Assembly: GCA_009829735.1 (NCBI GenBank)
Contig: CM020620.1
Span: 22,170,020 to 22,234,019 of the forward strand
Origin: Pyropia yezoensis
Taxonomy: Eukaryota > Rhodophyta > Bangiophyceae > Bangiales > Bangiaceae
Reading direction: 5' to 3'
DNA: 64,000 nucleotides
How positions within the stretch are numbered: position 1 is the stretch's first letter; the number at the start of each line of letters is the position of its first letter. Positions 8,515 through 55,127 of the stretch are shown here, piece by piece. The notes below the pieces were generated by a model. The model did no database searches and was not told where the DNA came from. It saw only the letters and a program-made list of their open reading frames with translations. The position numbers were made by a program, and so were the translations under genes.

Positions 8515-11500
8515 TCAATCCTCTTGTTCCGCATCCGTTGCGGATGAACTCGGCTCGTCCCGAGGGTCTTGGTTGGCCCCATCCTCTTGGTCCTCCTCCG
8601 AGTCCGACTCCAGAATCTTGCCGGCTCTGGCCACTGGAGTGCCCTCTATCCCGTTCCGTCGCGTGTAGGCAGAGACATCCGCGATGGGTAGCCGGTTTGA
8701 GGGTTCCCAGGTATCATCTGCCGGGTTAAAACCGAACCAGCGTACTCGCAGGTACAGGCGTCCGTCTCTCCAGGCATGGTCCACAAACTTGACGTAGACA
8801 TATCCCCGACCTTCTTCTTGGGATAGCCAGGGTACTGCGGCCCGCTTGCGCCGGGTCAAGTCCCGTTGGCTTGGCGGTGGAGCTCGGGTGACTTGGTCGC
8901 TGCTCACGCGGTACGGGGAGCCATCCACGTCTAGAAGAAAGGTCCAACCGTCCGTATTCAGGATCTCATAGGGTCCATCCGTCTTCGAGTCCAGCTTCCC
9001 CCGGGTCTTGCTATGGTTGTCCACAAAAACCCAGTCGCCACCACCCAGTTCCTTGTTCTTTTCCCGAACGCCCTTGTCATAGCCCCGCTTGTATCGCTCC
9101 TGGGTCTTCGAGATTGACTCCTTGACTCTTGGGAGCAGGAGCTTCAGTTGTTCCAGGAACTCATCCTTTGCCTTGGGACCTGACTTCAGTGCAGGCTGGA
9201 GACCGTCTGGTATTCTTTCCAGGGAGAAGTTGGTCAGCCGCCTTGGGGTGACAAAGTCGAGTGGAGCGACCCCCGTTGTCCGGTGAACTCGGGAGTTGTA
9301 GGCTAGAGTGAGGACAGCCAGGAGCTCGTCCCAGTCTTCTTGGTGCTCCTCCACGTAGTGCCGTAGCATGTCTACTAGGGTCCGGTTGAATCGTTCCACC
9401 TGGCCGTTCGTTTGCGGGAGGTACGTCGTGGTGTACAAGTTCTTGATGCCCATCAGGTCACAGACTCCTTGGAAGAACAGGGATGCAAACTGGGGACCGT
9501 TGTCGGTTAAGACGGAGTCTGGAGGGCCGTAGGCAGCTATCCAGTACTCGCAGAAGGCTGACGTGACATCCAGAGCCGTGATGGTCCTCAGCGGGATTGC
9601 TCGAGTGAACTTGGAGAACCGGTCACATATGATGAGCAGGTATATGTTGCCACTGGATGTTTCAGGTAGGGGCCCCAGGATGTCCATGCTTAAGCTTGCA
9701 AAGGGCTCCGCCGCAGGGAATAGGCGTAGCTTAGAAGTCTTCTTCCTCTGGGACAACCGGTTCCTTGCACAAGAAACACAAGCCTCCAGGTACTTATGGA
9801 CGTCACTGGCCATGGTTTCCCAGTAATAGTGTCGTCTCATGGAAGCATACATCCGATTGATACCAGGATGTCCGGCCTGGGGAGACGAGTGCTCCAGGCG
9901 TAGGATGTCAGCTCGTAGGCCCCGGGGTACGTAGACTTGAGTGGCCCCATCGAAGGGTGACACCCGTACTAGGAGTCCGTCTGTAGACTCGGAGAAACGA
10001 CTGTTCCGGTTCAGGTCCATTTGGTGGCGAAGCTCCAAGCATTGAGGATCCGTCAGTTGTGCCTCCAGCATCCGGTGAATAGTCACCGGTTGATCAGCTT
10101 CAGGTGTCCCATACAGGGGAGCATGCCAGCCACGTCCGACATTCGGGAGGATGAAGCAAGGTATTTCCTCCGGGATAGGACCGGTATCGGCTGCAGGAGT
10201 CTCCAGCCGGGACATGGTGTCGGCGCAGTGGTGCTCCCTCCCTGCTCTGGTGCACACCTTGTACTTGAACTCCGAAAGGCGTAGGCGCCACCGGGCGACC
10301 CTTCCTTGACTGCTGTCCATGCATAGCAGCCACCTTAGGCTGGCGTGGTCCGTCCGGATGAGGAACTCTTGTCCTTCAAGATATGGCCGTAACAGGAAGC
10401 AAGCCCAGACGACTGCCAAGCACTCGCGCTCCGTCGTGGAATAGTTCTTCTCAGCTGGAGTCAAGACGCGACTATAGTAGCCTATCGGGAGAAAGTGCCC
10501 ATCAGGTTGCTGCTGGAGTAGTGAGCACCCCACCTGGACGCCACGGGCTTCAGTCTCCAGAACAAACTGGCCCTCCCGCTTGGGTAACGCCAGTACTGGA
10601 GTGGTGGTCAGGCGCTTCTTGAGCTCTTCGAAGGCCGCGGTCTGCTTCTCGTCGAACACCGGGAGTTGTGCGGGAAGCTTCTTGCTGGTAAGCTTGGTCA
10701 ATGGCCGGGCAATCAGAGCATAGTCCCGTACGAACCGGCGATAGACGTTGCACATACCCAGGAAGCTCTTGAGTTCCGTCTGGGTTTTGGGTTGCCTTGC
10801 ATGCCGGAGGGCCTTGATGTTCTTCTCATTGACTCGGAGCTCCCCCGGACTCAGCACGTGCCCCAGATACTCCACCTCAGTCTCAAAGAGGTGGCACTTC
10901 TCGGCCTTGAGGGTAACTCCAGCCTTGGACAGGAGGGCCAGGACCTCCCGAAGGTGCTCCAGGTGTTCCGCTGGGGTCTTGGAGAAAACGATAATGTCGT
11001 CCAGGTAGATCAAACATGTTCTCCACCTTAGCCCGGACAGGATGATGTCGATGGCTCTTTGGAAGGTTGCCGGAGCATTGGTGAGACCAAAAGGAAGACG
11101 CTTGCACCGGAATAGTCCCAGGTGGCACGTGAAGGTGGTCTTGTCCTTGTCCTCGTCAGCCAGAGGGATCTGCCAGTAACCGGCATTACAATCCAGTGTC
11201 GAGAAGAGGGTGGCATCACCAAGAAAGTCGAGGCAATCATCCATCCGGGGTATCGGGTATACGTCCTTAACTGTCATCTCGTTCAGGCGCCGGTAGTCAA
11301 AGCAGAAACGGAAGTGACCGCCGGTTTTCGGGACGACTACCACCGGGAAAGCCCACTCGCCATCAGACGGCTCGATAACATCCATCTTGAGCATCTTGTT
11401 AACCTGCTTCTCAATCTCATCCCGGCGATGAGGTCCGGCCCGATATGGTTGCATGTGCACTGGCTTAGCTTCCGGCTTGAGTTGAATCCGGTGTAGAGTG

Positions 11501-12615
11501 GCGTCCATCTTGCCCAGCTCTCCCGACCACAGGTGCCGATATTCCTGGAGAAGCTTCTCCAGTGCCTCCTTCAAGTCGGGAGGGACATTTTCTTGCTTGA
11601 CCTTCGGCATCCCGGGTGGTGCTTGTTCGGGTTTCGGAGTAGCGCTGCCAGCCTGCTCTTGCTTCGGAGGTACGTCTAAGGCCGTCAAGTTGGATGCCAG
11701 TTCTTGTTGCAGGTTCAGGAGGTCTTCCTTGCTCATAGCACGGGCGGATCCCCGGTAAGGCTCTGCTGTACCAACTCGGGTGCCCTTGGCGAGGGTTATT
11801 GGCTTCCGGCTCACGTTGACGATGAGCACCGGGAACGGGGTGTGCCTTTCTACCTTCTTGTGATGTCCGTGGGCCAAGTATAACCGGTGTTTCGCCAGAA
11901 ATCCCTTACGTCCGTAGATCAGGCATTGACCTGCAATCCGGGTCGTTACTTGAACCTTGGTCTCTGAGCGAGGAGGTAGGAGCACCGGTTTGAAGAGAGT
12001 CAAGGTAGAGGGTGGGATGCGTTCCCTCTTGCTCTTGGCTACACGAACCTTGGCGTCCAGATGCTCCAATACCGGTGACACAAACCCATGGTTGAACTGG
12101 ACCTTCCCTTCTCCGGGTAGGATGCTCTTGACATGCTGCTTCTGGAAGTCCCAGCCTAGGATGAGGGGGACTGATAGGGTCTTGACTACTAGAAAGGGAA
12201 AAAGCATTGGTTCATTGTTGACATAGATGGCGACAGGAAGACGGCCAAGCGGTCGTAGGGTTTGACCCGAAGCGTCGACGATATGGGTCCGGGTAGGCGC
12301 TCTCCAGGCATGTCGACGCCAGCCCGGAGGTAACAGGTTCTCAGTGATGACGCTTGGTCCGGCTCCCGTGTCAACCACCGGCGTAACAGCTTGGGGGAGG
12401 CTATCCCCCACACGCATACGAGCATTAATCTTGAGGTTTTCTTTACGCAGGACGAGCAATGTCCCCTTGAACAAACAGGGTGTCCAGGCGGCTACCGGTT
12501 GAGCAGGTAACCGCCGTCCCTTCTCCCGGCACGCAAGGGGGGAACAGGTAGAAGTACCCTGCCGTTGGAGGTTCGGGAAGACACTTGGGGAGAGCGCCTG
12601 CCCTACTCGTTTCCC
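8515..12615 (-). CDS. pol: Ty3/gypsy Pol polyprotein of element AB (PR-RT-RNaseH-IN-chromodomain)
   Basis: The frame is open from the frameshift site to the stop at 8515; the first Met is at 12474. The protease active site is DTGAG (12358-12372). Reverse transcriptase contains YRAGPHRRDEIEK, FCFDYRRLN and the YLDD box at 10996-11007. RNase H follows, with the usual Glu (TTERE) and Asp (RTDH), but the first Asp of the usual TDAS is Glu (TEAR, 10549-10551). Integrase has the HHCC zinc motif (HSSPQAGH...CVSC) and a D,D35,E core: Asp at 9682-9684, Asp at 9502-9504, Glu at 9394-9396. The C-terminus (about 8655-8815) is a chromodomain-like segment (YVYVKFVDHAW, LRVRWFGF, DTWEPSNRL), which in chromoviruses directs insertion to marked chromatin. 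No stop or frameshift breaks it, so it may have been active recently. It is expressed only by -1 frameshifting from gag. Confidence 0.93.
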   Translation of the reverse strand, partial: GKRVGQALSPSVFPNLQRQGTSTCSPLACREKGRRLPAQPVAAWTPCLFKGTLLVLRKENLKINARMRVGDSLPQAVTPVVDTGAGPSVITENLLPPGWRRHAWRAPTRTHIVDASGQTLRPLGRLPVAIYVNNEPMLFPFLVVKTLSVPLILGWDFQKQHVKSILPGEGKVQFNHGFVSPVLEHLDAKVRVAKSKRERIPPSTLTLFKPVLLPPRSETKVQVTTRIAGQCLIYGRKGFLAKHRLYLAHGHHKKVERHTPFPVLIVNVSRKPITLAKGTRVGTAEPYRGSARAMSKEDLLNLQQELASNLTALDVPPKQEQAGSATPKPEQAPPGMPKVKQENVPPDLKEALEKLLQEYRHLWSGELGKMDATLHRIQLKPEAKPVHMQPYRAGPHRRDEIEKQVNKMLKMDVIEPSDGEWAFPVVVVPKTGGHFRFCFDYRRLNEMTVKDVYPIPRMDDCLDFLGDATLFSTLDCNAGYWQIPLADEDKDKTTFTCHLGLFRCKRLPFGLTNAPATFQRAIDIILSGLRWRTCLIYLDDIIVFSKTPAEHLEHLREVLALLSKAGVTLKAEKCHLFETEVEYLGHVLSPGELRVNEKNIKALRHARQPKTQTELKSFLGMCNVYRRFVRDYALIARPLTKLTSKKLPAQLPVFDEKQTAAFEELKKRLTTTPVLALPKREGQFVLETEARGVQVGCSLLQQQPDGHFLPIGYYSRVLTPAEKNYSTTERECLAVVWACFLLRPYLEGQEFLIRTDHASLRWLLCMDSSQGRVARWRLRLSEFKYKVCTRAGREHHCADTMSRLETPAADTGPIPEEIPCFILPNVGRGWHAPLYGTPEADQPVTIHRMLEAQLTDPQCLELRHQMDLNRNSRFSESTDGLLVRVSPFDGATQVYVPRGLRADILRLEHSSPQAGHPGINRMYASMRRHYYWETMASDVHKYLEACVSCARNRLSQRKKTSKLRLFPAAEPFASLSMDILGPLPETSSGNIYLLIICDRFSKFTRAIPLRTITALDVTSAFCEYWIAAYGPPDSVLTDNGPQFASLFFQGVCDLMGIKNLYTTTYLPQTNGQVERFNRTLVDMLRHYVEEHQEDWDELLAVLTLAYNSRVHRTTGVAPLDFVTPRRLTNFSLERIPDGLQPALKSGPKAKDEFLEQLKLLLPRVKESISKTQERYKRGYDKGVREKNKELGGGDWVFVDNHSKTRGKLDSKTDGPYEILNTDGWTFLLDVDGSPYRVSSDQVTRAPPPSQRDLTRRKRAAVPWLSQEEGRGYVYVKFVDHAWRDGRLYLRVRWFGFNPADDTWEPSNRLPIADVSAYTRRNGIEGTPVARAGKILESDSEEDQEDGANQDPRDEPSSSATDAEQED

Positions 12616-14363
12616 GGGTCCGAGGAGTCCTTAGAGGTTTCGGTCACCAGGTCAAAGTCCGTAGGAGCTTCCCTTGCCAGAGCCTCCGTGATGCTCTGTA
12701 AAGTTGCCACTCGGATTGCGTGTACCTGTGCCTTGTCAATCTTGGAGGGTGCTCGCCGGTCAGCCCAGTTGACCGCCTTTGCAAACACCAGTCCTTGACG
12801 CTTGAGTTTCTCCTGGAGGTCCTTGGGAATGGTCGGGCACTGGTAGGACATGTGATCCTCCTTCTGGCACAGCCAACAAGACCGGAATCGCTGGTTCTTG
12901 ACTTGCCTGGGGGCGACCAGGGATGGTTGCTCCTTAGAAACGAAGCCGCCCCACTTGTCCCCTGACCCCATGGGTGAGGCCTCGCCAACTGCGAGTACCG
13001 GTACAGGGCTATCACCTCCCTTATACTTGTCGGGTCCGGGTCGAACTCGCGACAACGGCTTGGGAGTTGATACCATGGGAGCTTGGAGGGCCCTGGCTTG
13101 CCGGTACTTGCCCTGGGTGTAGGCCATCAACTGCTGGAAGGTATGTTCTTGATGTTCCTGGTTGTAGTTCTCCGCATCCACTTGAAGATATTCAGGAAGC
13201 CCTTCCGAGAAGATCATCTTGAGCCTGACCTCAGGGTAAACGTTGCCACAAGCATCGCTCATCTCCCGGACACGACGGGCGAACGCCTCTGGAGTCTCTT
13301 GTCTATCCATGGTTGCCCGGTTCAGCCTGCCGACTGCTTTACGCAGAGAGTCCGCGTCAGCGTAGTTGGACAGGAGCCAGTTGACCGCCTCCGGATAACT
13401 CGCGACGGTACGTCCGACAATGTGTCCGGCAGAGTCTGGTAGAACCTGTGCAAACCGCTGTTCCGCTTCTCCGGTCATGAAGTTAACCAGGAGGTAGAGA
13501 GCCTTGCCCTCGGACACATCGTTGTCATTGCATGCCTTGACAAACCGGCGCAGGAAGGCAAAGATAAGCGCCGGTCTCTTCCCAGAAAACTTAGGATGTC
13601 CCCCGAAGCTCGGCTGCATTCGCCGGTTCAGGGACGCCATCTTCTTGGCCATCTTCCGGGTGTAACCTTGGTCTTGGTTCTCCAGCCGGTAGTTACCCCA
13701 ATACGTGACCTTGTTCAGGGTGGCATCTCCCACTTGGTGGGCAGGGAAGTCAAACTCGACTAGCCTGCGCCGGGTGGGACCGGGAGATGCATCCCAATCA
13801 TATCCCTCCTCAGAGCTGGAGGAACTGGTCTCGCTGGTGCTAGAGCGACGGCGATGACGCCGACGCCTTCGGCTGCTCCGGTTACCGGTCTTGGAGCTCC
13901 CCGCCCCATAGGATGCAAGGGGAGGAAAAGCTTGGCCGGTCCCAGGAGTCGAGGTCTCAGGGAGACCCGTAGAACCAGTCACAACGGTGCCTCTGGCATC
14001 GCTAGTGCCCACAGGAAGAGGTGTATACACCCAGCTGCCATGTGTGGGTCCAGGAGTAAACACACCAGGGGCTATCCCTGGAGGTTGAGGAGTAGAACCG
14101 ACAGGAGGGAGACGTCTGCTGCGAGCGGACTCAAACGCCGTTGACCCCGGGGTGGCTCCCACAGGAGGAACAGCCGGAGGAACGGGAGCAGGTGGTGCTT
14201 GGCCGCCTGTGGACTCCAGTCCGCTACCGGATGTCACACCCAGGTCTGCTTCACCCGTAGGGAGAACGCCGGGTTGGGCACCGTCCCCCGCGGTGACCAG
14301 GGATGCGTCAAGGGACGCGGGGTCTACCCCTTCGGGCACCGTCGTGCCAGGGAGGGTAGCCAT
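12603..14363 (-). CDS. gag: Gag polyprotein of element AB
   Basis: 586 residues from MATLPGTTVP (14363); the frame is open upstream to a Met at 14486, but the MAT start is similar to the MATQ start of the other gag. The N-terminal ~170 residues are Pro/Gly/Ser/Thr-rich, followed by a basic and then Ser-rich stretch (SSRRRRRHRRRSSTSET). The capsid-like region is about residues 200-460 (for example ALIFAFLRRFVKACNDNDV). A zinc knuckle CWLCQKEDHMSYQC (CX2CX4HX4C) lies at about 492-505. The protein ends DPGNE, the same last three residues as the gag of element D, because the frameshift heptamer is shared. It should assemble the particle and package element RNA. Confidence 0.88.
   Translation of the reverse strand: MATLPGTTVPEGVDPASLDASLVTAGDGAQPGVLPTGEADLGVTSGSGLESTGGQAPPAPVPPAVPPVGATPGSTAFESARSRRLPPVGSTPQPPGIAPGVFTPGPTHGSWVYTPLPVGTSDARGTVVTGSTGLPETSTPGTGQAFPPLASYGAGSSKTGNRSSRRRRRHRRRSSTSETSSSSSEEGYDWDASPGPTRRRLVEFDFPAHQVGDATLNKVTYWGNYRLENQDQGYTRKMAKKMASLNRRMQPSFGGHPKFSGKRPALIFAFLRRFVKACNDNDVSEGKALYLLVNFMTGEAEQRFAQVLPDSAGHIVGRTVASYPEAVNWLLSNYADADSLRKAVGRLNRATMDRQETPEAFARRVREMSDACGNVYPEVRLKMIFSEGLPEYLQVDAENYNQEHQEHTFQQLMAYTQGKYRQARALQAPMVSTPKPLSRVRPGPDKYKGGDSPVPVLAVGEASPMGSGDKWGGFVSKEQPSLVAPRQVKNQRFRSCWLCQKEDHMSYQCPTIPKDLQEKLKRQGLVFAKAVNWADRRAPSKIDKAQVHAIRVATLQSITEALAREAPTDFDLVTETSKDSSDPGNE
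12609..12615 (-). promoter_or_regulatory. Predicted -1 ribosomal frameshift heptamer, element AB
   Basis: GGGAAAC on the minus strand is phased CCG GGA AAC GAG TAG in gag, with the stop at 12603-12605. Slipping one base back continues as GGG AAA CGA into pol. The gag and pol frames overlap only over 12603-12630 (a pol-frame stop lies at 12631-12633), so this is the only plausible place for the shift. Identical site, phase and distance to the stop occur in the other family at 1577-1583. Confidence 0.8.
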
Positions 14364-35239: not shown

Positions 35240-37721
35240 ATGGGCCGCCTCCGCAAGGTGGCCATTGGCGCCAGCGTCCTGGCCGTCGGCGGCGGCCTCG
35301 GCCTCCGCTCCGCCCTCTCCCCCGCGGGGTCTCGCAAGGAGCGCGCCGCCGCGCGCGCGGCGGTGGCGCTGGCGCCCCTCGACACGGTGCCCAGCCGCGG
35401 GGAGCAGCTGGCCGCCCTCCGCGCCTCTGCGGCCGGCCCGGCGGGCGGGTCGCCGCCCACCCCGCCCGCCGCGGCGGGGGGGAGTGGCGCGCTCGCCGCG
35501 CAGGCTGCTGGCGAGGCAGCGTCGTCTGCTGGCCAGCGGTGGCCGGCGCCCAAGGTGGTGGCCGCCGACGGCGCGCCCGCCGCGTTTGACGTGCTGGTCA
35601 TTGGCGGCGGCGCGACGGGGACGGGGGTGGCGCTCGACGCGGCGCTGCGGGACCTCAACGTGGCCCTCGTGGAGCGGGATGACTTTGCGAGCGGCTCGTC
35701 CAGCCGGTCCACCAAGCTGATCCACGGGGGGGTGCGGTACCTGGAAAAGGCGTTTTTCCAGCTGGACCCGTCGCAGCTCAAGCTGGTGTTTGAGGCCCTC
35801 AGCGAGCGCTCCATTATGCTGTCGCAGGCGCCCCACCTGACCCGCCCGCTGCCGACCATCTTGCCGTGCTACAAGCTGTGGGAGGTCCCTTTTTATCGCG
35901 CCGGCCTGCTGGTACGTTTGGTGGGTGGGTGATGGGATGGGTAGGGGGGTTGGGGGACATCCACTGCTGCGCTCCCCGCGTCGGCGGGGGGCTCGCGCGA
36001 CTACCAGTCGACACCCTCGGGCAGTGGACTGCTGAGTGAGGTGTGCACTGACAGTGGTGCTATACGTCTGGTTCACTCATGTGCGGCAATTCCCAGTCTA
36101 CCCGTTTGCTGACTGACAATCTTTGACCCTCGTGTGCACATTTGCGTGTACTCTGTTGTGCTGGTTTGTCGGGTACCCATTGTCGCCCTCTGCTTCCGTG
36201 TACCGCCGTGGCCTTTTGTTCCTTCCCCTCTCTCGTCTCCAGGCCTATGACGTCATTGCCTACCTAGGACACGGCCTCTTGTATCTTTCCAAGTTTGTGC
36301 CTGCTGGCGAGGCCCTCCGCCTCTTCCCCACCCTGGCCAGCAAGGCTGTGGACGGCAAGCAGCTGCGTGGGACCATTGTCTACTATGATGGCCAGATGAA
36401 TGACTCGCGCTTTGCGACGTCGCTCGCACTTACCGCGGCTCTTCATGGCGCAAAGGTGGCCAACCACACAGAAGTCGTGGGTATGCTCCACGACGAGAAC
36501 GGCAAGGCCGTCGGCGCCACTGTCAAGGACCTGATGACTGGCGAGACTTTTGACGTGCGCGCCAAGGTTGTGATCAATGCCACTGGTCCGTTCACGGACG
36601 GCGTGCGGAAGCTGTCCAACCCGGAAGTGCGGGAAATGATTGCCCCTTCGTCGGGCGTGCACATTACCCTGCCCGAGTACTACTCCCCTGACGGCATGGG
36701 GCTTATTGTGCCCAAGACCAAGGACGGCCGCGTCGTTTTTATGCTCCCGTGGATGGGCTCCACCATTGCGGGCACGACGGACAGTTCCGTGAAGATTACG
36801 GCCAACCCGCAGCCCCACGAGGATGAGATTGCCTTCATCCTGGACGCCCTGTCGGATTACCTCACCGTCGAGGTGCGTCGGAAGGACGTCAAGTCGGCGT
36901 GGTCAGGCATCCGCCCTCTGGCCATGGATCCCGACGCCAAGCCCTCGGGCAACACCCAAAACATCCTGCGGGAACACGCGGTGCACGTGTCGCCGGACAA
37001 TGTGGTTACCATTACTGGCGGTAAGTGGACGACGTACCGCAAGATGGCTGAGGACGCCCTGGACCGCGCGCTGTCCGTGACACCCGAGCTGGCGCCCAAG
37101 GCGTCCAAGTGCAAGACGGAGTTTGTGCAGCTGGTGGGCGCCCACAAGTGGGACCCCAGCTATTTTACCTTCCTGGCCCAGCGGTATGAGCGGGTCAAGT
37201 ACCCAGTTCAGACCGCGGCGGAGAAGGCGTCGGACGTGGCCAACGGCATCGACCACTCCAACCATCACGTGTACGGTGGTCTCTTGGGCGTGGACGTTGC
37301 GCAGCACCTGTCAGCCGCGTACGGGGACCAGGCATACAAGGTTGCGGAGCTTGCGGAGCGGGGCTTTGGCAAGAAGCTGGCCCATAACCACCCGCTGCTT
37401 GAGGCGGAAGTGATTTACACCATCCGTTACGAGTACTGTCTGACTGCGTCGGACTTTTTGGCACGGCGGTCCCGGCTGGCATTCCTGGACGCTAAGGCGG
37501 CTGTCTCGGCGGCGCCCCGCGTCATTGAGCTGATGGCCCAGGAGCTGGGCTGGAACAAGGCCCGCGTGGAGGCGGAAACCAAGGAGACTGCCGCCTTCCT
37601 GCGTACCTTTACCGCGGGCAAGAAGGAGCCCTACACGGCAGAGGAGTTGGCGTCTGCGGCTGCATTGACGACCGCGGCTGCTTCACCGCCCGCGGCTGCT
37701 TCGCCGCCAGCGGAGAGGTAG
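35240..37721 (+). CDS. GPD2/GUT2-like: FAD-dependent glycerol-3-phosphate dehydrogenase, mitochondrial type (two exons)
   Basis: Oxidises sn-glycerol 3-phosphate to dihydroxyacetone phosphate and passes electrons to quinone, normally on the outer face of the inner mitochondrial membrane. Exon 1 is 35240-35911 (224 codons) and exon 2 is 36243-37721; both junctions are in phase 0, giving 716 residues. The N-terminus (MGRLRKVAIGASVLAVGGGL) is basic and hydrophobic, fitting a presequence or anchor, and is followed by an Ala/Pro-rich linker. The FAD-binding motif VLVIGGGATGTG is near residue 117. Family signatures follow: STKLIHGGVRYLEKAFFQL, GTIVYYDGQMNDSR, VINATGPFTD, PWMGSTIAGTTDS, SAWSGIRPL, GGKWTTYRKMAED, SRLAFLDAKAA. 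The C-terminus ends in an Ala/Pro tail, and the EF-hand pair of the animal enzyme is absent. Exon 2 has fewer homopolymers and more normal composition than its surroundings. Confidence 0.96.
35912..36242 (+). other. Spliceosomal intron of the glycerol-3-phosphate dehydrogenase gene
   Basis: 331 bp with donor CTG|GTACGT and acceptor CTCGTCTCCAG|GCC, a pyrimidine-rich 3' end and a possible branch site in TGCTGACTGAC (about 36107). It carries in-frame stops. Joining gives an uninterrupted family match (FYRAGLL|AYDVIAYLG). It is clearly richer in A and T than the exons. Confidence 0.93.
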
Positions 37722-52230: not shown

Positions 52231-52290
52231 CTACACCCCAGTCCCCCTCGACAGGTCGGCCGCCGGCGCCGGCGCCGCCCAGCCCACCCT

Positions 52291-52333
<43 letters not shown>

Positions 52334-52464
52334 TCACCACCACCACCGTGGCCACCGCCGCCATCGCCGCCGCCGCCGCGGCCGCCGTCCCCGTCTGGGT
52401 GGCCCCCCCGCAAAAAGGCGGGCATGGACCACGAGCTAATCTCCCGCGACCGGAGCCCCCCGCT

Positions 52465-52508
<44 letters not shown>

Positions 52509-55127
52509 TCTGCTCTGACCGCCGCTGCCGCCGCTCCCGGGACAGCACCCCAAAGGCGCTCGTGCGGGGGGACACGCGGCCGAGCAGCTCCAGGGCGCTC
52601 GACGTGGACCGCCGGCCGCCGCCGGGCGGCCCCGCGCCGCCGTCAGAGGCGCCCTCCAAGTCACTGTCGCTGTCGCCGCCGCCGCCGCCGCCGCCGCCGC
52701 GTCCGCCGCCGCCGCCGCCGCGCAGGCCGCCGCCCCCGTCCTCGGCCAGCGCCTCGGCTTCCTTGGCCGCCGCCGACGCGCGCGACGCGTCCTGCCGGCC
52801 GAGCATAAACAGCAGCGGCGCGACGATAAACGTAAAGACGGATAGGCCCAGGAAGTTGCCGCCGTACCCAATCACCTGCGGACGGGGGAGGAAGAGCGGG
52901 CAAAAGAAAAAAGAAAGGTGCGTGAAGCGGGGGGAGGGAACAGGCACAAGCAAACAAAGGGACCGAGGAGAAAAAGAAGAGGGGGCAAAAAAAGAGAGTC
53001 AGCCTGCCATCCCGGCCGCAGCCCCCACCGTATCCCGCCAAGCGCGCACCCTCCTCCCCTCCCGCCCACCACGAGTGCGGGCCTCCGCCGCCCCCCACCA
53101 CGCACCTGCTCGAGGAACTGCGCGACCGTGTAGGTGGAGCGCGTCGAGTAGTGCTCCACGGTGTAGGTGAAAAAGGCGAGGGAGACGTGGAAAAAGTTCT
53201 GCCCTGGCTCCCGCTGCTGCAGCCGCGGGTACACGTCCGCCTTGGCCACGTACTGCTCCTCCTGGGCGCGGAGGCGGTCGGCGCCCTGCCGCACATTGTG
53301 CTCGACGACGCGCTTGGACAGGAAGAGCTGGGTGAGGCTGTTGGCGGCCACCCGGCCGAGCGGCACCCCCGAGATGGACTCGTGGTCGTGCGCCGCCGTG
53401 TTGTCCGCGTCCGCCAGCCGGTCCAGCACGTGCACGTCCACCCCCGGATCATAGTTGACGAGCGGCGTGGAGAACTCCACCGCCCCGTTGACCACCACCC
53501 ACCCGGTGCCGTTCCAGTTGTAGCGGGGCGCCTCCTCAGCGGGGGGCGTTGGGTAAAAGTGGCCACCGAAAAAGACCGTGTTGCACAGCTGCCGGGAGGT
53601 CATGGCGGCGGTGCTGAGCGTGGCCGGGTCCACCCCCGGGGTGACGCCCAGGATGCCCTTGCGCTGCAGCTCGGCCAGCTCGGTGGCGTTGGCGAGGAGC
53701 TTGAGGAGTTCCGCCGTGTACTCGTCGTCCATGCTGTCGGGGGAGACCATGCACTGGGCAAACGGCGCGTACGAGACAAAGTGGATCTGCACGTTGTGCA
53801 GCTTGTTCTCCTCGGCCGTCCTGCCCCGGTGGAGGACCAGGTTCTCATCCAACACCTTCTCGTAGCAGTAGACACAGTCAATGCCCGTCACCCCGCGGTG
53901 GCGCGTCGACAGGATGCCCGTGCGGTCGCTGCAGTTCGGCGGCCCTTTGGGGAGCTCCCGGAGGAGGCCCGCGCCAACGGGGTCGTCCTCCCGGCGGCCC
54001 AGCGCGCTCGCGTCTGGCCCCGGCGGGAGGCGCATGTACGTGACGCGGAACAGGGAGGGCCCCGAGTAGTTGCGGTCCCGGCGGAGGGCTTCGGAGAAGG
54101 CGGGCCCCTCGACACAAAAGCTCAGCCGCGGCACCGGCAGGGAGGTGACGTCCTCAAAGCGCGCGTGCGTCAGCGGGTTTTGGATGTCCGTGACAAAGTC
54201 CCGGACCAGCAGCCCCACCAGCACAATGCACGTGGCGGTGGTGAGGAAGAGGAGCGCGAGCGTCACCCACAGCCGCTTCTCCCGGTAGCTCACCACCCCG
54301 TCCCCGTCCCGGTCTGCCCACCGGGCGTACCAGGGGAGCGCCGCGTGGGCGGCCGCCGCCTCGGCGGCCGCCTCCTCCGCCGACGCCGCCCACATGGCCA
54401 GCGCCTCCTCCATCCGCCGGCCGGCGGCGGCGAGGCCCGCCAGCGCCGCCGCCTCGTCCGCCTCCCCCAGCGCCGCGTCCAGCGCCCGCCGCACCGCCGC
54501 CCGCTCGTCGTCGAGCATCCGGGAGAGGTCGCCGAGGCCCCGCCCCCGGGCGGCGGTGACGGCGTCGCCCAGCTTGGCGAGGCCCGTGAAGAGGGCCTCC
54601 AGGTCGTGCTTCTCCGCCAGCGCCCGCTTGTACCCGCCGGGGTCCCGCGCCAGCAGCGCCGCCCGCAGCCGCCCGCGGCTGGCTGCGAGCGCCCGCGCCT
54701 CGCGGCGGCGGCTGAGGCTCTCCCGCCGGCCCCCGTCGGACGTCACCGACGTGCGGCGCCACCAGCCGCCGCCGCCGCCGCCGCCGCCGTCCCCGCCGCC
54801 GCCGCCGCCGGCAGCAGAGGCGGCGGCGGTGGAGCGGCGGCCGCCGCCGCCGCCTCCCACCTCGATGTCATCGTCGCTGTCGTAGCGGCGGAACGGCTTG
54901 TCGCCGCCCCCGTCTTGCGGGGCGCCCACGCCCACAGAGGAGGAGGAGGCAGAAGTGGGGCTGTCGGACGGCGCGCGCCCCGTCGACGGGCGGGCGCCGC
55001 CCGTCTCTGCGCGGCCCTGGGGATCCGCCGTGGGGTTGCCGGCGGGCGCCGGGGGCTCGCCGGCGGGCGCCGGGTGATCGCCGGCGGGCGCACCCCCGGT
55101 GGGGAGGGGCGCCGGCGGGGAGGGCAT
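52231..55127 (-). CDS. DEG/ENaC-superfamily-like ion channel with EF-hand before TM1 (two exons)
   Basis: Exon 1 is 53106-55127 (674 codons from MPSPPAPLPT) and exon 2 is 52231-52875; both junctions are in phase 0, giving 888 residues. The N-terminal part is Pro/Ser-rich, then a helical Arg/Ala-rich region. A 12-residue EF-hand loop DRDGDGVVSYRE (about residues 272-283) has all calcium ligand positions. It is followed at once by TM1 (LWVTLALLFLTTATCIVLVG). Then comes a long extracellular-type region (about 370 residues) with six Cys and sequons (NYSG, NCSD, NATE, NGTG), starting with DVTSLPVPRLSFCVEG as in the post-TM1 segment of ENaC/ASIC. Before TM2 is YTVAQFLEQVIGYGGNFLGL, then SVFTFIVAP. 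The G-L-S matches the G-x-S selectivity motif, and GG-x-x-GL-x-x-S resembles ASIC. Such subunits form trimeric cation channels. The Gly/Ser-rich tail (about 190 residues) is disordered. Family assignment rests on topology and short motifs, hence the moderate confidence. Confidence 0.7.
52876..53105 (-). other. Spliceosomal intron of the channel gene
   Basis: 230 bp on the minus strand, donor CAG|GTGCGT, acceptor CCCGTCCGCAG|GTG. It contains in-frame low-complexity sequence, and splicing joins AQFLEQ to VIGYGGNFLG, which restores the pre-TM2/TM2 motif. Phase 0, like the dehydrogenase intron. Confidence 0.88.

Follow-up and report, generated by a model that had tools for sequence, protein, structure and literature searches.

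An EF-hand joined to the first membrane span of a candidate DEG/ENaC-like channel in the red alga Pyropia yezoensis

Most known ion channels of the DEG/ENaC superfamily come from animals, and exceptions are scattered. Their subunits have two transmembrane segments (TM1 and TM2) around a large cysteine-containing loop, and TM2 carries a belt motif of the form [G/S]-x-S. A BLASTp survey of many eukaryote groups, Rhodophyta among them, reports candidates restricted to holozoans, a single alveolate, and a single stramenopile, with none from red algae (PMC10507113). Here, we describe a gene of Pyropia yezoensis that lies in a window of 64,000 nt (contig CM020620.1, at 22.17 Mb; all positions below are those of the window). 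Its predicted product places an EF-hand immediately before TM1 of a channel-like protein. We found no red-algal DEG/ENaC in the open-licence literature. Nor did this literature yield a DEG/ENaC channel with a fused EF-hand, the EF-hand passages available to us being concerned with partner proteins; an initial sequence-only reading of this DNA likewise knew of no described channel with such an arrangement.

We propose, with a probability of about 0.5, that this protein serves as a subunit in a divergent channel of DEG/ENaC-like type with the trimer fold of ASIC, ENaC, and PAC, the gate of which would be tuned by cytosolic Ca2+ through the EF-hand. The evidence for kinship to DEG/ENaC is weak but concordant; we therefore call the protein DEG/ENaC-like, with an EF-hand attached directly to TM1, and family membership is not proven.

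Gene structure and relatives

The spliced gene is located on the minus strand and consists of two exons (55127-53106 and 52875-52231), yielding a predicted product of 888 residues (Table 1). Its open reading frame (ORF) starts with an ATG at 55127, exon 1 is followed by a GT donor at 53105, and exon 2 ends with a TAG stop codon. All features named in the sequence-only reading were recovered from the minus-strand sequence, with the intron in frame. A single unbroken ORF holds the EF-hand, TM1, and the entire loop between the membrane spans. The residues at the exon junction (EQ, continued by VIGYGGNFLGLS) are identical in the relative P0001, in which parts of the C-terminal tail also recur, and a paralog bearing a Trinity transcript name, P0009, continues across the same junction. 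Two further relatives, P0006 and P0007, lose homology at the junction codon and are probably ORFs read from genomic DNA. The recurrence of the junction in P0001 and P0009, together with the EF-hand loop kept in the 9 of 11 sequences that reach it, takes the observation beyond chance.

Three protein searches returned ten relatives (P0001-P0010). The three that carry a species name all belong to Bangiales: P0001 and P0005 are from Pyropia vietnamensis and P0002 is from Porphyra umbilicalis. Since each search scored only about 8,000 candidates sharing 5-residue words, absence of the family outside Bangiales is not shown. The closest proteins were P0001 (77% identity) and the Porphyra umbilicalis protein (62%). 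Two groups can be distinguished: (i) group A, comprising the window protein and P0001, P0002, P0003, and P0004; and (ii) group B, comprising P0005-P0010, with identities to P0001 of 38% (P0005-P0007), 36% (P0008), and 29% (the partial P0009 and P0010). P0004 loses homology inside the loop and looks decayed; for these reasons it was left out of the 10-row alignment A6, and it still counts in the EF-hand tallies. In A6, five of the loop cysteines never vary; the sixth, within the SFC or TFC motif, is absent only in P0010, which stops short. The number of N-glycosylation sequons in sequences spanning the loop ranges from one (P0005) to five (P0001). A strongly conserved helical domain (LLARDPGGYKRALAEKHDLE...) precedes the EF-hand and gave no match in Pfam scans.

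Membrane spans, loop, and EF-hand

Hydropathy analysis with 19-residue windows gave two peaks, with values of 2.64 (window starting at residue 290) and 2.26 (starting at residue 682), followed by 0.96 for the next best window; the sequence-only reading had likewise named two membrane spans. Between them lie about 360-370 residues with six cysteines and four sequons, in line with the loop of about 370 residues named earlier. By analogy with known channels, this loop would be extracellular. Hydropathy and residue counts together correspond to the DEG/ENaC-type layout. Shortly after TM1, the predicted segment was found as PRLSFC, which by eye is comparable to FPAVTFC of ASIC1; the pattern P-x-x-[ST]-F-C is kept in 10 of 11 family sequences, that is, in all that reach it.

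The EF-hand loop DRDGDGVVSYRE was likewise found just ahead of TM1. Its pattern (D1, D/N3, D5, G6, a hydrophobic residue at 8, and E12) is present in 9 of 11 sequences, the other two stopping short, so that the ligand positions are kept in all nine that reach the loop (the window protein and P0001-P0008; position 3 is Asn in P0004). In each of these nine, the loop starts 61 residues ahead of P-x-x-[ST]-F-C, a constant spacing that suggests a rigid unit. Judged from the sequences, the fusion of EF-hand and TM1 is conserved across the family.

Single sequences matched Pfam EF-hand profiles below the cut-off (EF-hand_1, E = 0.11 and 0.26; EF-hand_5, E = 0.13 and 0.086). A profile built from 7 rows of the family over the pre-TM1/TM1 region retrieved calmodulins from the PDB, where 179 distinct sequences had E <= 10 and the best 60 of the 179 were inspected. 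The best whole-sequence E-value, 0.0018, is a sum over several EF-hands of one chain, and among the four alignments shown no single stretch was significant (best i-Evalue 4.4). The structural model of P0001 contains an EF element composed of helix 263-268, a loop, and helix 278-313, the exit helix running straight on as TM1; the blocks covering residues 251-300 have predicted local distance difference test (pLDDT) values of 57-71.

Table 1. Features of the candidate channel gene (window positions; residues refer to the window protein)
Feature	Position	Strand	Evidence or content
Exon 1 (residues 1-674)	53106..55127	-	ORF, splice donor, orthologs P0001 and P0002; low-complexity N-terminus, helical domain, EF-hand, TM1, loop
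Intron, GT-AG, 230 nt	52876..53105	-	Frame kept; junction recurs in relatives
Exon 2 (residues 675-888, then stop)	52231..52875	-	TM2 and glycine-rich tail; tail motifs common to P0001
Conserved helical domain before EF-hand (~residues 141-262)	54342..54707	-	Invariant blocks in alignment A1; helices in P0001 model
EF-hand loop DRDGDGVVSYRE (residues 272-283)	54279..54314	-	Kept in relatives; family profile against calmodulins
TM1 (~residues 286-308)	54204..54272	-	Hydropathy; P0001 model helix 278-313
Inter-span loop (~residues 312-672)	53112..54194	-	6 Cys, 4 N-glycosylation sequons; sequence and P0001 model
Post-TM1 motif PRLSFC (residues 333-338)	54114..54131	-	P-x-x-[ST]-F-C in relatives
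TM2 (~residues 678-705)	52783..52866	-	Hydropathy; first half covered by Pfam ASC 399-450 of 455
GLS at the place of the ASIC1 GAS belt (residues 684-686)	52840..52848	-	hhalign register

Similarity to DEG/ENaC and PAC, and the surrounding window

The window protein was scanned with Pfam as separate exons and as a trimmed core. The core matched the ASC family (PF00858) with E = 0.007, and further matches were obtained for P0001 (0.012), for C-terminal pieces of the window protein (0.018) and of P0001 (0.0052), and for a hand-made consensus (0.026). All of them cover profile positions 399-450 of 455, around TM2. No ASC match was obtained for exons 1 and 2 scanned apart (E <= 1), nor for the group B proteins with TM2, P0005 and P0009, or a C-terminal piece of P0005. 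A six-frame search of the Pyropia yezoensis genome (107.5 Mb, 11 contigs) with PF00858 gave no match; as it missed the window gene itself, it says nothing about other copies. Among 14 control genomes, PF00858 scored above the cut-off in one, that of the bacterium Thermotoga maritima, a surprising hit for a family that is mostly described from animals.

A profile of groups A and B together was aligned by hhalign to chicken ASIC1 over 65 columns with 29% identity (P = 0.0018), and its score was reached by none of 280 block shuffles of ASIC1 that preserve local composition (0 of 110 and 0 of 170). Scores of each group alone were 26.9 for group A, equalled by 2 of 170 shuffles, and 26.5 for group B, equalled by 1 of 170. 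Both alignments share one register, in which GLS or DIS falls on the GAS belt of ASIC1 (P0001 682-684 on ASIC1 443-445), and the G-x-S filter claimed for TM2 thereby finds its counterpart. The hhalign probabilities are just 3.4-14.8%, and they refer to a single ASIC sequence. Neither phmmer nor the family profiles retrieved a DEG/ENaC or PAC chain from the PDB sequences at E <= 10.

TM2 is intact in four sequences, with GLS in the window protein and P0001 and DIS in P0005 (717-719) and P0009 (394-396); NF-x-x-x-S-VFT is common to all four. In P0008 and P0010, homology is lost within TM2 beyond NFF, where a second, group B intron may lie just before the filter codons.

The template-free model matched ASIC, ENaC, and FaNaC (Z-scores up to 11.1) and also PAC, a chloride channel (up to 9.7). 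The match extends from TM1 to TM2 for ASIC1 and FaNaC, and over the loop or up to TM2 for ENaC. For residues 321-650, the P0001 model has pLDDT values of 65-92 in 26 of 33 ten-residue blocks. An earlier model from three rows (pLDDT 37.9, predicted template modeling score 0.26) was kept out of the fold searches. Pfam has a TMEM206 family, corresponding to PAC; neither P0001-P0010 nor the window core and the pieces showed it at E <= 10, in a search whose HMMER filters drop most matches above ~0.1.

Several results weigh against membership in DEG/ENaC. (i) The ASC matches reach 14.0-16.3 bits and thus remain below the curated Pfam cut-off of 23.6 bits. (ii) The conserved cysteine array of the animal type is absent, the loop having six cysteines; ASIC1 has seven disulfides. 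(iii) The pre-TM1 HG motif is absent from 60 residues before the EF-hand loop to 10 after it in all nine sequences that reach the loop. (iv) Group B has DIS and lacks G-x-S. (v) Foldseek placed PAC first (E = 2.7e-4), ahead of DEG/ENaC, whose first chain was PDPNaC1 (E = 0.21). The landmarks of ENaC and ASIC put forward by the sequence-only reading were upheld in profile, shuffle-control, and predicted-fold comparisons, but not with respect to the Pfam threshold, the HG motif, the cysteines, the group B belt, and the first-ranked fold.

As for the surroundings, the window has a G+C content of 69.5% and contains 500 N, and an Rfam scan of it at gathering scores found nothing. For the Pyropia yezoensis genome, the available text of PMC7423979 gives an estimate of ~108 Mb with 65% G+C, in three chromosome-sized scaffolds and 524 contigs. 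At 8518-12630 on the minus strand, one ORF matched Pfam reverse transcriptase, RNase H, and integrase and, weakly, chromodomain and aspartyl protease, by which it resembles a long terminal repeat retrotransposon of the Ty3/gypsy type. Another ORF (36117-37718, plus strand) carries a DAO (FAD-dependent oxidoreductase) domain and a DAO_C domain, and in this resembles glycerol-3-phosphate dehydrogenase/oxidase.

Proposed mechanism, alternatives, and described channels

In the proposed topology, a cytosolic N-terminus would be followed by TM1, a beta-rich extracellular domain, TM2 with the GLS belt, and a cytosolic tail, and three subunits would form one pore, presumably for cations. The EF-hand is taken as cytosolic because of the analogy with ASIC and ENaC topology, the sequons in the loop, and basic residues beside the inner ends of the membrane spans; its exit helix would form the cytosolic end of TM1. 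It would sit where animal DEG/ENaC channels carry the pre-TM1 HG segment. Given this replacement of HG and the fixed spacing, a direct coupling of Ca2+ binding to TM1 is proposed: Ca2+ bound by the EF-hand on the cytosolic side, at the base of each TM1, may bend or stiffen the helix and shift the gate, and through this feedback Ca2+ could tune or shut the channel. For group B, we speculate that a trimer pore would contain three carboxylates from the belt Asp, which could favour Ca2+.

An alternative that we consider rather unlikely is that the EF-hand of this DEG/ENaC-like channel does not act on the gate and has a structural role, or takes up Ca2+ in support of folding or trafficking. Most EF-hands operate in pairs, which makes a lone one unusual, and the P0001 model is only moderately confident in this region. 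The kept ligand positions and the invariant spacing are, on the other hand, as mechanical coupling predicts, although such spacing is equally expected of any rigid membrane-proximal element. It is unlikely that the protein, while sharing the broad trimer fold, stands closer to PAC/TMEM206 or represents a third lineage beside DEG/ENaC and PAC, in which case selectivity may differ; the Foldseek ranking fits this arrangement, and the ASC matches and the hhalign register fit DEG/ENaC.

A two-TM protein with this fold that does not conduct and serves as a receptor or scaffold, as might apply to group B in particular, appears distinctly improbable. Asp occupies the first filter position in both intact group B TM2 sequences, and group A has a bulky Leu in the middle of its belt; against this, the NF-x-x-x-S-VFT motif is maintained, and the centipede channel PDPNaC1 lacks HG and still conducts, with a selectivity left unaltered by mutations of its Gly-Ala-Ser motif, according to the available parts of PMC12714832. 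That the EF-hand and TM2 stem from different transcripts has hardly any likelihood: the window gene model is predicted from genomic sequence, and P0009 starts within TM1 and therefore does not show the EF-hand, but EF-hand, TM1, and loop share one uninterrupted ORF, the junction is repeated in P0001 and P0009, and tail motifs of exon 2 are common to P0001.

Should the DEG/ENaC-like protein function as a channel, such channels would be older or more widely spread than thought and could carry a built-in calcium switch; a Ca2+ sensor in TM1 would offer a simple handle on the TM1 movement that gates this fold. Nori species, moreover, are grown as crops and are exposed to tidal drying and salt stress. 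A relative in red algae that is too divergent to surface in such a BLASTp survey has a bearing on how old the fold is and on the question of loss versus transfer that PMC10507113, in its available passages, leaves open. A broader view, which we consider doubtful, is that red algae contain an ancient branch of the ASIC/ENaC/PAC trimer fold in which the EF-hand, rigidly fused to TM1, is a direct cytosolic Ca2+ gate replacing HG and the GLS and DIS groups differ in selectivity, an Asp ring favouring Ca2+; if true, the fold would predate animals and exist in Archaeplastida.

Among described systems, PAC (TMEM206/ASOR, the proton-activated chloride channel) would share the two-TM trimer fold class; its target chains have 251-285 residues in most rows, whereas the red-algal loop is longer and is accompanied by a G-x-S belt and an EF-hand. 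BRTNaC1 had been considered as a red-algal channel and was dropped, as both it and PDPNaC1 come from centipedes according to the accessible text (PMC12714832). The two are likewise divergent DEG/ENaC members, and PDPNaC1 resembles our protein in lacking HG; they differ as animal proteins, with PDB chains of 421 and 431 residues, and PDPNaC1 has Gly-Ala-Ser, no EF-hand being mentioned in the passages available from that source (PMC12714832). The Deg/ENaC homologs of heterokonts, alveolates, and relatives of filastereans are also non-animal, but were found by BLASTp with animal queries, as far as the available passages tell (PMC10507113). With the DEG/ENaC channels ASIC1, ENaC, and FaNaC (PF00858), the red-algal protein shares two membrane spans with a large loop, the predicted fold match, G-x-S, and P-x-x-[ST]-F-C; it differs from them in its score below the Pfam cut-off, its six loop cysteines, the lack of HG, and the EF-hand and helical domain that precede TM1.
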